Assembly: GCA_002450035.1 (NCBI GenBank)
Contig: DJYF01000043.1
Span: forward strand, 11,522 to 75,521
Source: Caryophanales bacterium UBA6985
Lineage (GTDB): Bacteria > Bacillota_I > Bacilli_A > RF39 > UBA660
DNA: 64,000 nt
Direction: 5' to 3'
Shown here: piece after piece, positions 34,172 to 41,109 of the stretch
Layout: every line of letters starts with the position of its first letter
How positions within the stretch are numbered: position 1 is the stretch's first letter
Position numbers and translations under genes: made by a program
The notes under the pieces: model-generated
Database searches by the model: none
Seen by the model: only the letters and a program-made list of their open reading frames with translations
Told to the model about the DNA's origin: nothing

Positions 34172-35059
34172 ATGGAAGATTATTACTACGAGGCTACTAG
34201 CAAAAAAGAAGTTATATTTAAATTATTCTTAGGATTAGTAATAGTTGCATGTTTCGTTTTATTAATTATTTTTATGATTAATAAAGATAATGTTTCTATT
34301 AAGAAAAATATAGAATTAGAAGCAGGAGAAGTACTTCCTAAAGATGTTAGTTTTTATGTTAGTTCCAAAATAACTAATGAAAGTGATTATACTGTTACTG
34401 TTAAAGACCTTACTTTAGGAGAAAAAGCAACTACTGCAGGAAAGTATAACTACAAGGTAGAATACAAAGATAAAGTATTAAAAGGTACTATTACAGTAAA
34501 AGATACTACTCCTCCAAGAGTAGAAGTAAGTGATTTAACAATTGGTGTTGGTGAAGATTATAACCCAGATGAGTTCCTTTCAAAATGTGAAGATTATTCA
34601 AAACCATGTACAGTAGTTATGAAAGATGAAAAAGATGAATCTCTTAATACAAAAGTTGGAGAATACAAGGTTGAACTAATAATAACTGATGCATATAACA
34701 ATAAGACTACTAAAACTGGTAAACTAATTGTTAAAGAAAATTACTCAAAAGAAGAAGCAGCTAAGAAAGATACTACATTTGTAGCAACTAATCCTGAAGT
34801 AGAAGATATTACTACAAAAGATGCATTTAAAATGTATGACCATGCATTTATAGATGATCCTCATGAAAGCAAAGAATATGAAGATATCTATGAAGTACTA
34901 GAAACTGACCTTAGAGAATATTTACCAGAAGAATACTCAGGACTAAATATAGTAAATCAAGAAATTATATATATGTATAATAGACACGGATTTATTGTAG
35001 GATTTGCTGTAAGAGTACAATTATCAAGTGGAGAAACAATATATCTTCATAAAAATTAA
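34172..35059 (+). CDS. Membrane-anchored protein with Ig-like domain
   Basis: The 295-residue protein has a short cytoplasmic N-terminus and one membrane helix (about 16-38, LFLGLVIVACFVLLIIFMI). The rest is extracellular. Residues about 110-190 (DTTPPRVEVSDLTIGVGEDY to KTTKTGKLIV) look like a DUF5011/Ig-like surface domain with a likely disulfide (CEDYSKPC). The C-terminal 100 residues are unrecognised and contain DLREYLPEEYSG. It is probably displayed on the cell surface. The function is unknown. Confidence 0.7.
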   Translation: MEDYYYEATSKKEVIFKLFLGLVIVACFVLLIIFMINKDNVSIKKNIELEAGEVLPKDVSFYVSSKITNESDYTVTVKDLTLGEKATTAGKYNYKVEYKDKVLKGTITVKDTTPPRVEVSDLTIGVGEDYNPDEFLSKCEDYSKPCTVVMKDEKDESLNTKVGEYKVELIITDAYNNKTTKTGKLIVKENYSKEEAAKKDTTFVATNPEVEDITTKDAFKMYDHAFIDDPHESKEYEDIYEVLETDLREYLPEEYSGLNIVNQEIIYMYNRHGFIVGFAVRVQLSSGETIYLHKN

Positions 35060-35355: not shown

Positions 35356-38300
35356 ATGGATGAGAAGTTAATCAGATTTTTTAAAAAAATTGGATTTAAT
35401 GATATTGTTTCTTTTGAAAATGCGAGCCTTGAATCTTGTACTGTTCATAAGAAAACATCTACTTGGACAATTAAGATTAAAGCACCAGAACTAATTCCTT
35501 TATCATCTATTTTAAGTCTTAAAAAACTTTGTAAAGAAGGAGTAGACTCAGTTAAATCTATAGATATTATATTAGATTATAGTTCCTTAAATGAAGAACT
35601 AGTTTTAGAGTATTTTAAATACTTCTTTAATCTTGTAACTAGAGACTTAGTAAGTCTCTCAGGTATTAATAAAGATACTATTAGCATTGATGGGAACTAT
35701 ATTTCAATAGATGTTACTTCTAAGATGGAAGAAACTAATATCAAAAAGGTAGAAAAAAGACTATTAACTCTTTTAAGTGAATGTGGTGTAACTGGTTTTA
35801 AGATTAAATGTAATTTAAATGAAGAAGCAGAAAAAGAAGTTCAAAAGACTATTAAGAAAACTATTGATAATGTTGTTTTACCTAAAGTAATGGTGTCTCC
35901 TCAAACAACTACTAAATCATGGACTCCAAAGAAAAAAATTGAGTATCAAAGAGAAGGAGTAGTTCCAATTAAGACTCTTACTAAAGAAGAAAATGCTGTT
36001 AACTTAGAAGCTTATGTAATAGATCTTGAAGGAATGGTTAGAACTAAGAAAACAGGCGGAGAGTTTTATTTAATAAATATTAAACTATCTGATAACTCAT
36101 CTTCTATATTAGGAAAATACTTTGCAAGTGATTCAGATGAGTTTGAGAAAGTATGTAAAGAACTTAAAAAAGGTAATTGGTATCACTTCACAGGTCAAGT
36201 AAGAGATGATGCTTATGCTCATGATCTTGTTTTTAATATGCGTACATATGAAGCAATTGATAATCCAATTGTTAAGAGAATTGATGAAGCCGATGAAAAA
36301 AGAGTTGAACTTCATGCACATACAATGATGTCTCAAATGGACGGAGTTATCAATGAAGAAGATTTAGTTGATCAAGCAATTAAATGGGGACATAGAGGTG
36401 TTGCTATTACTGACCATGATTGTTGCCAAGCATTCCCTCATGTATTTGATAAAGTAACTAAATATAATAAAAGTAAGAAAAAAGAATTTGATGAAAAAAT
36501 AAAAGCTAATGAAGAAACTATCAAAGAGTTAAGTGACTCAGGTAATATTGAAGGAGTAAAAGCTCTTGAAGAAATGAATAATGAGTTACGTGAAGAAAAG
36601 AAGAACTATGTTCCTTTTAAAGCTGCTTATGGTGTAGAACTTGATATGTTTGATTCTTTCCTTAATGTTTGTTTCAATGCTGATGATAGAGATATAAATA
36701 AAACTGAATTTGTTGTATTCGATACTGAAACAACAGGATTTAATCCTGGTATTGGAGACTCTATGATTGAAATAGGTGGAGTACGTATTAAAGATGGAGA
36801 AGTAGTTGATAGATTTGATGAACTTATTAATCCAGGTCATCATATTGATGAAGCAATAACAAAAGTAACGGATATATCCGATGATGATGTAAAAGATGCT
36901 GATAACGAAGAAAATGTTACTAAACGTTTTAAAGAGTGGATAGGAGACTTACCACTTGTTGCTCACAATGCTAAATTCGATAAAAATATGCTTGATATGG
37001 CATATCATAAATATAATTTAGGAGAACTTAAAAACCCTATTATTGATACACTTAATTTATCTAGAGTAATTAATTTAGATTTAAAACGTCATAGTCTTGC
37101 TGCTTTAGGTAAAAACTATGGTATTGATACAGGAGAAGCTGACACTGGAGATGAAGAAGAAAGTGATTCTTCTGTAACTTTAGTAGATATTCCTGAAGAA
37201 GTTGGTGCCTTACTTGAGGATATTAAACTAGATGGAGTATCTATTCTAGAAGTTACATCTATAGAAAATGATGTAAAAGATATAGCAACTGAAACTGTAG
37301 TAAAGGGATTCAAGAAAAAATATTCTATATCTAATGCATTCAGAGCATCTAAAACTGATTCAGTAGAGTTAGAAGTAATATTAAATAATATAGATTTTAG
37401 TGTTGTAAGCCCAACTGGTGTTATAAAGTTGCATCCAGCTTCTAATGATATTTCTATAGATATTACAAATGGATTACAAGAATATAACATTACATTTAAT
37501 ATCTATGTTGGACAACACCATGGTGCTGATGTCGACTCTGAAAATACTGCTTTAATATTTAATAGTATGTTAAAGCAAATAAAAGGAATTAATACTTTAA
37601 ATGAACTAAATGACTTAGGTTTATTAGAATCTATTTCAATAAAGAATAATCCTAAGTATTTAAAGAATATACAAGATCTTATTTCTTATAAGAATTATAT
37701 AAAAATTCAGATGGATAGTGACACTAACAAAGAAAATCCATTTGAAGAATATGGAGTAAATGGATACTCATGGAAGTTTGACTGGTGTCATAAAGATCAC
37801 CTTCAAATGTATGAAAATATACCTGCTGAAAGTTTTACAGAAAACATAGCAAATGAATATGATGGTACAAAGCATATTACACTTATAGCTAAGAATCATG
37901 ATGGCTTAAAGAGTCTATTTAAGATTATTTCCTTTGCTAATACAAACTTCTTAAGTAAGAATGCAAGAATACCTAGAAGATTAGTTAATGAGTTAAGAGA
38001 AAACATTCTTGTTGGAAGTGCATGCTTAAATGGTGAAATATTTAATATTGCACTTACTCGTAGTGATGAAGAGTTAAAGAAAGCAATGGAGTTCTATGAC
38101 TATATAGAAGTTCAACCTTTAGATAATTATCGCTTTCTAATTGCAAGCCACGATATAGATTCAGAAGCACATTTAAAGAAAGTAATTAAGAAGATTATTA
38201 AGTGTGCTAAAGAAGTAGGTAAGATGATTGTTGCAACAGGAGATGTTCATAATCTAAATCCTGAAGATGTTTTATCAAGAGAGATTATAGTTAATCAAAA

Positions 38301-41109
38301 TGTACCTGGAAAAGGTAGACATCCTCTTGCAAGATGTCTAAAACCAAAAGCTAAAAATAATACTAATAAAAAGAATATTGCTGATGCAATAGAAAAAGCT
38401 AAGAAGAATGGTGTAGAACTAAATCCAACAGATATAAAAGTACTTAAATATATCTACACAATGACTGCGTTTAAAGACATTCCTATTACTGCTTCAACTA
38501 TTCTTGATATATATGCAACACCTAAAGGTGATAAAGCAAGTGACGAAGTAGAAGTATTAAAGACTGATGATGATAAGAAGTATAGAATAGAAAGTTCTCT
38601 ACGACGCTTACAAATTGCTGGTGTTCTTACAATTAACTTTGCAGATGGCACTTATAAATTACTTTCTAAATACTCATCAACTGGTTCTACCGTTCATGGT
38701 GATATACCTAATCAATACTTTAGAACTACGAGCGAAATGTTAGAAGAGTTTGCATTCTTAGAAGATAAAAAGTTAGTTAAAGAAATAGTTATTGATAACC
38801 CTAATAAGATTATTGATATGATGGACGAAATAGAGGTAATTGTTTATCCTGAAAAACCTTACTCTCCAATTATTGAGCATTCTCAAGAAATATGTCGTGA
38901 TTTAGTATTTGACAAAGCACATTCTATGTATGGAGATCCACTTCCAAGAAACATAGAAGAGCGTATTGCTCAAGAGTTCTATGGAGATAAGATAACTGAT
39001 TTAGTTAAAGCTCATATGGATAGTGAATATCCAGATATGAGTGAAGAAGAAAAACAAGAGAAGTTCTCTAGTTACTTACATGATGTAATCATGTCAGGAT
39101 ATGATGGAGTAGTAAAATTAAAAACAGAAGAGGTTAAGTCTCAAGAACCAGACTTAAGTGAAAAAGATGCTATAGAAAAAGCTAAGTTATTATTAACTGG
39201 TATCATAGGTGGAGGTTTTGACGTTATCTACCTTATAGCTCAAAAACTGGTTAAACACTCAAATGACGATGGATATTTAGTTGGTTCCCGTGGTTCTGTA
39301 GGTTCATCATTTGTTGCATCAATGATGGGTATTACAGAGTGTAATGGTCTTCCAGCTCATTACTATTGCCCTAAGTGTTGCCATAATGAATTTACTGATA
39401 AAGATGGTAATCCATTATCAGAAGCATATCCATCTGGATATGACTTACCTAATAAAAAGTGTCCTGAATGTGGAGAAATGATGGTTCATCAAGGAAATGA
39501 CATGCCATTTGCAACCTTCCTAGGTTTTGCAGGTGAGAAAGTTCCTGATATAGACCTTAACTTCTCGGGAGATAACCAAGCAAGTGCCCATGCTTATACA
39601 AAAGTACTATTTGGTACTGATAATGTATATCGTGCGGGTACAATAGGTACAGTTGCAGATAAGACAGCATTTGGTTATGTTCAAGGTTTCTATGAAGATC
39701 AAATGTTTAACGATCTTCAAAATGAAGCAAAAACATATGGTATAAAAATAGCTTCTAAAGATGACTTAAAGAAGAAAAAATTAATTAAATGTAATATAAG
39801 AGATGTTGAAATTGAACGTCAAGCAATTGGTTGTACAGGTGTTAAAAGAACAACTGGTCAACACCCAGGTGGAATCGTTGTAGTTCCAGGTTACAAAGAT
39901 GTCTGGGATTTCACACCATTCCAATATCCTGCTGATGATCCAACTGCTGAATGGAGAACAACACACTTCGATTATCATAAGATTGAAGCAGATCTTTTAA
40001 AACTTGATATACTTGGTCACGATGACCCAACAGTTCTAAGAATGTTACAAGATTTATCAGGCATGGATGTTACAACAATTGATTTAGGTGATAAAGATAC
40101 TATGTCTATTTTCACAGGTCCTGAGATTCTCGGCGTTAAACCTGATCAATTAAGAGGATTAACAAAAGATGGACGTAAATACTGTCCAACAGGAACTCTT
40201 GGTATCCCTGAATTTGGTACATCATTCTTACTTGGAATGCTTGAAGAAACAAAACCAACAACATTTGCAGAACTTATAAAAATATCAGGTTTATCGCATG
40301 GTACAGATGTATGGTTAGGTAATGCTCATGACCTATGTACACCTGATGAAAATGGTGACATAAAAGTACCATTTAAAAATGTAATTGGTTGTCGTGATGA
40401 CATCATGGTTAATCTTATACAATGGGGTCTTCCTGCTGGTAAAGCCTTCAAAATCATGGAGTTTGTTCGTAAAGGTAGAGCAAGTAAAGACCCAGCTACT
40501 TGGAAAGAACATGCAGCCTACATGAAAGAACATAATATTCCTGATTGGTATATTGAATCATGTAGTAAGATTAAATACATGTTCCCAAAAGCACACGCAA
40601 CAGCATATGTAACAAGTGCATTTAGAATTGCATGGTTTAAAGTACATCATCCAATTTGGTATTATTCAGCATACCTTTCAATTCGTAAAGATAAATTTGA
40701 TATTGCATCCATGGTAGGTGGAGAACAAGCAATAAGAGATAGAATTGATGAGATGGATATGGATCCAAACTTAAGTGATGTAGATAAAGAAAAACGTGAT
40801 ACTTTATACATTTGTCTAGAAATGTGTGCACGTGGATTTAGATTTGAAAATATCGATATTGAGAGAAGTGATGCACGTAAGTTCCTTATAACTGAAGATG
40901 GAAAAGGTTTAATTATTCCTTTCAGTGCTCTTGATGGTCTAGGTGAAAACGTTGCTTTAAAGATTATTGAAGAACGTAAGAAAGCGCCATTTATATCACA
41001 AGAAGATTTACATGATCGTGGTAAATGTCCAACAAGTGCTATGGAAAAATTAAAAGAACTTGGATGTTTCAAGAACTTAAGTGAATCAAATCAATTATCA
41101 TTATTTTAA
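35356..41109 (+). CDS. polC: DNA polymerase III alpha subunit, Gram-positive type PolC, with large insertions
   Basis: Replicative polymerase with built-in 3'-5' exonuclease. At 1917 residues it is about 480 longer than usual. The N-terminal OB region comes first. The PHP domain (VELHAHTMMSQMDG from 317) is split by the DEDDh exonuclease: DTETTG at 456, VAHNAKFD, and HHGADVD at 721-727. The palm follows (YLVGSRGSVGSS; KVPDIDLNFSG with D1398 and D1400), then a zinc site, the fingers and a C-terminal clamp-binding QLSLF. Extra segments lie at about 369-418 (coiled coil), 592-719 (inside the exonuclease), 990-1115 (winged-helix-like) and 1212-1272 (helical). All catalytic motifs are kept, so it should be active. 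Confidence 0.97.
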   Translation: MDEKLIRFFKKIGFNDIVSFENASLESCTVHKKTSTWTIKIKAPELIPLSSILSLKKLCKEGVDSVKSIDIILDYSSLNEELVLEYFKYFFNLVTRDLVSLSGINKDTISIDGNYISIDVTSKMEETNIKKVEKRLLTLLSECGVTGFKIKCNLNEEAEKEVQKTIKKTIDNVVLPKVMVSPQTTTKSWTPKKKIEYQREGVVPIKTLTKEENAVNLEAYVIDLEGMVRTKKTGGEFYLINIKLSDNSSSILGKYFASDSDEFEKVCKELKKGNWYHFTGQVRDDAYAHDLVFNMRTYEAIDNPIVKRIDEADEKRVELHAHTMMSQMDGVINEEDLVDQAIKWGHRGVAITDHDCCQAFPHVFDKVTKYNKSKKKEFDEKIKANEETIKELSDSGNIEGVKALEEMNNELREEKKNYVPFKAAYGVELDMFDSFLNVCFNADDRDINKTEFVVFDTETTGFNPGIGDSMIEIGGVRIKDGEVVDRFDELINPGHHIDEAITKVTDISDDDVKDADNEENVTKRFKEWIGDLPLVAHNAKFDKNMLDMAYHKYNLGELKNPIIDTLNLSRVINLDLKRHSLAALGKNYGIDTGEADTGDEEESDSSVTLVDIPEEVGALLEDIKLDGVSILEVTSIENDVKDIATETVVKGFKKKYSISNAFRASKTDSVELEVILNNIDFSVVSPTGVIKLHPASNDISIDITNGLQEYNITFNIYVGQHHGADVDSENTALIFNSMLKQIKGINTLNELNDLGLLESISIKNNPKYLKNIQDLISYKNYIKIQMDSDTNKENPFEEYGVNGYSWKFDWCHKDHLQMYENIPAESFTENIANEYDGTKHITLIAKNHDGLKSLFKIISFANTNFLSKNARIPRRLVNELRENILVGSACLNGEIFNIALTRSDEELKKAMEFYDYIEVQPLDNYRFLIASHDIDSEAHLKKVIKKIIKCAKEVGKMIVATGDVHNLNPEDVLSREIIVNQNVPGKGRHPLARCLKPKAKNNTNKKNIADAIEKAKKNGVELNPTDIKVLKYIYTMTAFKDIPITASTILDIYATPKGDKASDEVEVLKTDDDKKYRIESSLRRLQIAGVLTINFADGTYKLLSKYSSTGSTVHGDIPNQYFRTTSEMLEEFAFLEDKKLVKEIVIDNPNKIIDMMDEIEVIVYPEKPYSPIIEHSQEICRDLVFDKAHSMYGDPLPRNIEERIAQEFYGDKITDLVKAHMDSEYPDMSEEEKQEKFSSYLHDVIMSGYDGVVKLKTEEVKSQEPDLSEKDAIEKAKLLLTGIIGGGFDVIYLIAQKLVKHSNDDGYLVGSRGSVGSSFVASMMGITECNGLPAHYYCPKCCHNEFTDKDGNPLSEAYPSGYDLPNKKCPECGEMMVHQGNDMPFATFLGFAGEKVPDIDLNFSGDNQASAHAYTKVLFGTDNVYRAGTIGTVADKTAFGYVQGFYEDQMFNDLQNEAKTYGIKIASKDDLKKKKLIKCNIRDVEIERQAIGCTGVKRTTGQHPGGIVVVPGYKDVWDFTPFQYPADDPTAEWRTTHFDYHKIEADLLKLDILGHDDPTVLRMLQDLSGMDVTTIDLGDKDTMSIFTGPEILGVKPDQLRGLTKDGRKYCPTGTLGIPEFGTSFLLGMLEETKPTTFAELIKISGLSHGTDVWLGNAHDLCTPDENGDIKVPFKNVIGCRDDIMVNLIQWGLPAGKAFKIMEFVRKGRASKDPATWKEHAAYMKEHNIPDWYIESCSKIKYMFPKAHATAYVTSAFRIAWFKVHHPIWYYSAYLSIRKDKFDIASMVGGEQAIRDRIDEMDMDPNLSDVDKEKRDTLYICLEMCARGFRFENIDIERSDARKFLITEDGKGLIIPFSALDGLGENVALKIIEERKKAPFISQEDLHDRGKCPTSAMEKLKELGCFKNLSESNQLSLF

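Follow-up and report, generated by a model that had tools for sequence, protein, structure and literature searches.

A probable Ig-like domain inserted in the proofreading exonuclease of PolC in a lineage of uncultured Bacilli

The window, a 64,000-nucleotide stretch of DNA from Caryophanales bacterium UBA6985, carries at positions 35356–41109 of the forward strand, on which all parts of PolC described here lie, a polC gene encoding a PolC-type DNA polymerase III of 1,917 amino acids. The frame is open throughout and the whole-protein profile scores (NF001688, 1530.4 bits; TIGR01405, 1358.6 bits) exceed their cut-offs of 873 and 1043.45, respectively. The N-terminal domain (PF14480) likewise exceeds its cut-off (26.3 versus 22 bits), while the OB domain (PF01336) reaches 20.4 bits against a cut-off of 27 in a region alignable with the canonical PolCs of Enterococcus faecium (9qpc) and Geobacillus kaustophilus (3f2b). 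With these two enzymes the window PolC shares the N-terminal domain, a PHP domain with an inserted DEDDh exonuclease, the polymerase core and the HhH region, as well as the catalytic residues and the fold of the exonuclease core. All five DEDDh residues are kept: D456, E458 and D542 in the N-terminal part of the exonuclease (residues 449–591; 36700–37128), and H722 and D727 in motif III, HHGADVD (37516–37536). Set against short PolCs of related genomes, the protein differs by six extra stretches, including about 124 residues ahead of motif III.

That a segment of about 128 residues sits inside this exonuclease had been proposed in the initial annotation, and the comparisons bear this out: LAALGKNYGID ends at residue 591 (position 37128), HHGADVD starts at residue 721, and the segment between them (residues 592–719; 37129–37512) is flanked by the full complement of exonuclease acids and the His. 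Aligned stretches of the solved E. faecium PolC (9qpc_A) end at query position 592 and restart at 814. Nor is the segment ordinary in PolC, as the strictly extra part, residues 596–719 (124 amino acids), corresponds to columns that are empty in 42 of the 43 short PolCs encoded by related genomes; the exception (L062) has 12 residues there. By contrast, all 38 long PolCs (the window's and 37 loci on other contigs) hold at least 97 residues at the site. An assembly artefact was rejected, since residues 560–730 are spanned fully by every one of the 120 listed homologues, among which is the protein of the window itself.

Structure prediction of the insert, whose confidence is known from pLDDT and pTM (0.69) alone, gives an all-beta domain with a disordered tether. 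The tether (residues 592–612; 37129–37191), mostly predicted to be disordered, matches the acidic opening described initially; averaged over 33 sequences, the tether has a net charge of −6.6 and the domain one of −7.9. The domain itself (residues 613–719; 37192–37512) is probably an Ig-like beta-sandwich: Ig-like neighbours were found for it, and weak Ig-like Pfam matches include FixG_C, to which 5 of the 38 members match at E values down to 2.5e-4. The window's own insert falls below every Pfam cut-off (best PF22349, 16.4 bits; cut-off 26), and matches across the members scatter over 45 families, most of the 25 listed having E values above 0.01 and one member matching nos_propeller at 6e-4. 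The last strand is predicted to lead almost directly into the segment with H722 and D727, motif III lying immediately C-terminal to it. The all-beta prediction and the retained exonuclease core thus support the earlier suggestion of a folded appendage beside the proofreading site. The junction residues TGE, which start the tether, and YVG are invariant in 38 aligned rows, and conserved patches (SKT and LHPAEN) lie within an otherwise variable domain.

The initial annotation was right about this insertion and incomplete about the protein, as comparison with the 43 short PolCs revealed five further extra stretches. Residues 381–420 in the PHP domain (36496–36615), with the look of a charged helical hairpin judging by sequence only, occur in several other branches and are shared by two of the 43 short PolCs. 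The others are a post-exonuclease insert (residues 761–832; 37636–37851), an insert after PHP metal ligands (residues 994–1111; 38335–38688) that appears winged-helix-like from its sequence pattern and weak matches only, a basic insert in the polymerase region (residues 1450–1479; 39703–39792) and a 9-residue insert (residues 1600–1608; 40153–40179). An older insert (residues 1209–1279; 38980–39192) also occurs in many of the order's short PolCs and was therefore left outside the clade-specific set. On average the six stretches are filled to 0.92–1.00 in the 38 long PolCs (window included), gaps being confined to frames truncated where a contig stops (L030, L031 and L033). At the PHP site, a 37-residue insert is also found in separate branches of the order (L057, L105, L106, L107, L116, L119 and L170); because these branches add to the window's clade, the site may repeatedly gain inserts. 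The 1450–1479 site is likewise a recurrent insertion site, with 65 residues in L170 and 84 in P0143, P0160 and P0203, all of which lack the exonuclease domain.

Both nuclease sites appear intact in these enzymes. The DEDDh set is complete in all 33 long PolCs inspected, and as PHP ligands 32 of them have HHDHEHCDH and the remaining one HHDKEHCDH. Three exonuclease motif patterns were matched in 117 of 120 insert-bearing homologues (the best 120 of 121); P0020 and P0029 fall outside the patterns with DVE as motif I, both acids being retained, and P0074 is the third non-matching homologue. The alignments demonstrate that the PHP–exonuclease half of PolC has been remodelled in a lineage of uncultured Bacilli with the PHP (HHDHEHCDH) and DEDDh signatures intact. 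HHDHEHCDH is the string scored as an active PHP site in passages of a 2026 survey (PMC12926913), and it is also present in 4 of 4 sister PolCs and in 69 of 72 other PolCs from the order and neighbouring lineages, besides 32 of the 33 long ones. These counts contrast with the statement in the same passages that PHP is often inactive in PolC+DnaE3 systems.

A search with residues 560–730 recovered 121 proteins at E ≤ 0.01 among 1,342 candidates, and 118 of the best 120 are 1,875–1,949 amino acids long (exceptions: P0062, 1,093; P0093, 1,692). Records of the loci are mostly labelled uncultured Bacilli or Bacillales, with some Erysipelotrichales, Tenericutes or Firmicutes, and the habitats, where readable, are the rumen or other animal gut. 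With the insert profile, matches appeared in 22 of 385 genomes of the order and in 21 of 291 family genomes, 19 in each set being judged real; among 395 genomes of the class there were 2 (G001 and G037), and among 392 of the phylum there was 1 (G001 itself). Weak matches in three genomes of the order (G175, G189 and G299; the first and last also in the family set) were dismissed as chance, being partial, with E values of 2e-4 to 6e-4, and lying in frames of 235, 450 and 732 amino acids. Because 274 of these 291 family genomes contain the PolC polymerase region, only a minority of the family carries the insert; the profile, made from large inserts only, may miss minimal domains.

The phylogeny orders these proteins by the length of the loop. 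The main tree was based on 1,401 columns without the inserts and 43 hand-picked rows (16 of them from 95 new proteins, with the best 120 of 5,011 matches considered); the partial frames L016, L024, L030, L031 and L033 were excluded from all trees. Within a 31-row clade (bootstrap/SH-aLRT 100/100), the outermost row, L168, is without an extra loop. The L166/P0137 group (loop of 6–8 residues) then branches off within a 30-row clade (100/100), the L062 group (13–16 residues) within a 25-row clade (98/94) and the P0143 group (13 residues) within a 22-row clade whose support of 93/90 is under the tool's star threshold. All 20 domain-bearing rows form a single clade (100/99) made up of the P0172 group, with inserts of 87–90 residues, and the window's clade (15 rows, 100/100). 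In the latter, the insert measures 97–100 residues in two early branches and 112–124 in the others (up to 125 in another alignment). The branching order is the same in a 79-row tree (79 of 109 rows kept after removal of rows at least 90% identical to a kept row) and in a tree of 29 hand-picked rows, for the rows they contain, the latter placing the L062 group as sister to the domain clade (90/86).

The sister short PolCs (the L166, L062 and P0143 groups) thus share with the window PolC a neighbourhood in the tree and a mostly acidic loop of 6–16 residues at the insert site; they differ in that the loop is too short for a domain and in being without the 994–1111 insert. The minimal-domain PolCs (P0172, P0176, P0184, P0199 and P0214) stand closer, with an insert of 87–90 residues at the same site, a related 994–1111 insert and a 30-residue polymerase-region insert, whereas their domain is smaller, the 1209–1279 and 1600–1608 stretches are absent and the post-exonuclease insert spans 25–28 residues, compared with 3–11 in the sisters (alignment-dependent figures). 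Comparison along the tree therefore shows the acidic loop before the catalytic-His motif to give way here to a tether plus a predicted domain of about 70, later about 110, residues. The similarity between minimal and large inserts is modest (hhalign gives a score of 29.7 with a probability of 59%, and 30 column shuffles reach 19.4 at best) and leans on their common position, while the 994–1111 inserts of the two clades appear clearly related (score 83, probability 98%; 30 shuffles at or below 17.6). From the tree order and the shared inserts, the domain and the 994–1111 insert would have arisen together and later than the acidic loop. The distribution of some stretches is less simple: the P0143 group, which has 84 residues at the 1450–1479 site, lacks the PHP insert, and several groups lack 1209–1279.

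Three features were seen only in the window's clade: the 1600–1608 insert, the larger post-exonuclease insert and a change in motif III. The motif reads HHGADVDSE in 117 and HHGADVDAE in 3 of the 120 listed homologues; HHRADYDAE is kept in all 5 minimal-domain PolCs and in 4 of 4 sister rows, and HHRADYDAE or HHRGDYDAE is found in 57 of 72 other PolCs.

Searches for a source of the insert gave no stand-alone relative at E ≤ 0.01 in a profile search of 4,043 candidates, a search that detects only proteins with shared short words and similar length, so that a distant source is still possible. There was no match to PDB sequences at E ≤ 10 or to PHROGs at E ≤ 1, and the insert profile had none at E ≤ 10 in 80 viral loci (of at least 151 confirmed), some of whose matches extend beyond query residue 152, where the insert starts, as far as 212. 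Capture from the gene just upstream of polC (34172–35059) was rejected: a relative was found in only 3 of 80 polC loci, 67 of which include at least 1,500 bases upstream of polC, and hhalign against the insert profile scores 10.9 (probability 0.09). That gene has a weak Ig-like match (PF16403, E value 0.046), and its product, with relatives found only in L001–L003 of these polC loci, has an N-terminal hydrophobic stretch and, by eye, one predicted membrane segment. In L015, L019, L036 and L060, tblastn spans of 7.5–8.5 kb around polC reflect an extra segment upstream; an intron inside polC was rejected, as the frames are intact.

Substitution rates (Nei–Gojobori, 13 pairs) gave dN/dS of 0.07–0.38 for the domain in the 12 estimable pairs and 0.03–0.14 for the exonuclease core in all 13, values that are rough because some dS exceed 1; tether and domain evolve faster than the core. 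Across 126 of 150 rows, the rate of the domain covaries most with the NTD+OB region (r = 0.48; reached in 0 of 300 permutations), ahead of the post-exonuclease and 994–1111 inserts (0.31 each) and the polymerase core (−0.20), a pattern that may reflect shared fast evolution. An OB–Ig signal in a first covariation run was set aside as partly due to gapped columns; low-gap runs (columns with at most 2% gaps; 126 rows, 111 rows with the full insert, and two halves of 55) leave one recurring pair, OB 226 and insert 703, which is in the top list of inter-domain pairs of the insert in 5 of 5 runs and hints at a coupling. Ig–OB pairs above threshold amount to 3.1, 1.7, 1.0, 1.8 and 2.2 per mille in the five runs, near the 2 per mille of all pairs, so that no clear enrichment emerges for the OB region overall, and the effective number of sequences is only 11–43, depending on weighting.

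We tentatively favour, at somewhat less than even chances, a reading in which the domain acts as an intramolecular bracket and gate. It would brace the mobile exonuclease against adjoining PolC domains on the OB/PHP side, while its negative charge at the active site would disfavour DNA entry outside the proofreading conformation; tethered near the 3′-end binding site, the acidic domain would hinder idle DNA entry, and bracket and gate together would tune the switch from polymerase to exonuclease. We count in favour its position, the intact core, the all-beta prediction with its disordered tether, the Ig-like neighbours and weak Pfam matches, acidity, conservation, selection, the length series, the motif III change, the covariation with NTD+OB and the 226–703 pair. 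A brace between peripheral domains is plausible because OB and Exo are peripheral in E. faecium PolC, as described in parts of a paper that also reports 3-nt ssDNA in the exonuclease site (PMC12592400). Against it, the prediction does not establish how the domain is oriented with respect to the exonuclease core, faster evolution than the core would also be expected of a loosely constrained appendage, and all 5 minimal-domain PolCs have a domain without the motif III change. Frame lengths of DnaX, DnaN, HolA and DnaE show no sign of a co-acquired replisome partner: their ranges in 8 long-PolC genomes overlap with those in 7 others, with no matching gain in the former, which mildly favours an intramolecular role; DnaX (above cut-off in 14 of the 15 genomes, not G263; HolA in 13, not G006 or G263) even tends to be slightly shorter in long-PolC genomes (526–574 versus 553–586).

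Two other readings are not far behind the bracket and gate. The domain may be a neutral or merely stabilising elaboration, a tolerated loop expansion that folded and is kept since its loss would destabilise the protein, with no role in proofreading. We regard this as rather less probable: graded loop lengths among relatives, evolution faster than the core and the other insertions in these PolCs (the PHP insert in several branches, 65 or 84 residues in the polymerase region) would fit it, while dN/dS below 0.4 in every estimable pair, the invariant TGE and YVG junctions and a motif III altered in all 120 listed homologues speak against it. A shade less probable still, the domain could be a docking platform that recruits a separate protein (clamp, SSB, a repair factor or an unknown lineage-specific protein) to the proofreading site. 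Ig-like sandwiches are common protein-binding modules, an acidic domain is unlikely to bind DNA directly, and SKT and LHPAEN stand out as conserved patches; the lack of a matching length gain in the four replisome proteins, and in these four only, weighs on the other side. An intein, mobile element or assembly error, suggested by an extra stretch within an essential gene, is extremely improbable given the lack of Cys in residues 596–719, as the initial annotation had also held, and of any intein family among the matches listed, together with the open frame, the spanning homologues, the 37 other contigs and the relatives with graded lengths.

A bolder proposal, which we consider unlikely though worth stating, is birth of the domain in place: a loop of acidic residues would have lengthened into a folded beta domain that has no relatives elsewhere and today serves as a gate or brace for proofreading, and the intermediate stages would persist in living lineages. 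Among the PolCs compared, no insert has a length between 16 and 87 residues, so that recruitment of a domain into an acidic loop already in place accounts for the series as well as gradual lengthening does.

The architecture, a probable Ig-like domain inside the PolC exonuclease, was not recognised among the openly licensed papers searched. Passages of a 2013 survey describe PolC as evolutionarily compact, with a fairly narrow length range, and give an OB duplication in two Lactococcus PolCs as one example of domain expansion (PMC3919608); passages of the 2026 survey, whose scope is complete genomes, describe no such PolC, and its main text is without the terms ‘insertion’ and ‘Ig-like’ (PMC12926913). 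The nearest parallel, by analogy only, is PARN, in which, according to parts of the papers cited, a small R3H domain is inserted within the RNase H-like fold of a DEDDh exonuclease (PMC3985635; DEDDh assignment, PMC10493513) and helps to stabilise the protein (PMC10493513). There the domain is R3H rather than a probable Ig-like sandwich and the enzyme an RNA deadenylase rather than a replicative polymerase; what appears new is a PolC with an extra domain in its exonuclease, the insertion of small domains into DEDDh nucleases being already known in principle. Because this essential polymerase bears an acidic domain close in sequence (a few residues) to the catalytic His of its proofreading site, keeps its catalytic residues and has relatives with shorter versions, a handful of natural PolCs could be used to study the origin of a folded domain within a conserved enzyme as well as the possible tuning of the polymerase-to-exonuclease switch.

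Other variation in length and gene content was also seen. The PolCs of L102 and L103 (1,702 and 1,689 amino acids) are long without any measured insert, their extra length being located elsewhere. One genome (G008, C38:63904-66639) has a second DnaE-like frame of 1,045 amino acids besides DnaE (977) and PolC (1,936), and P0132, P0133 and P0208 (1,631–1,643 amino acids) carry an extra precomputed Pfam domain, PF21762, unseen in the other PolC rows listed.
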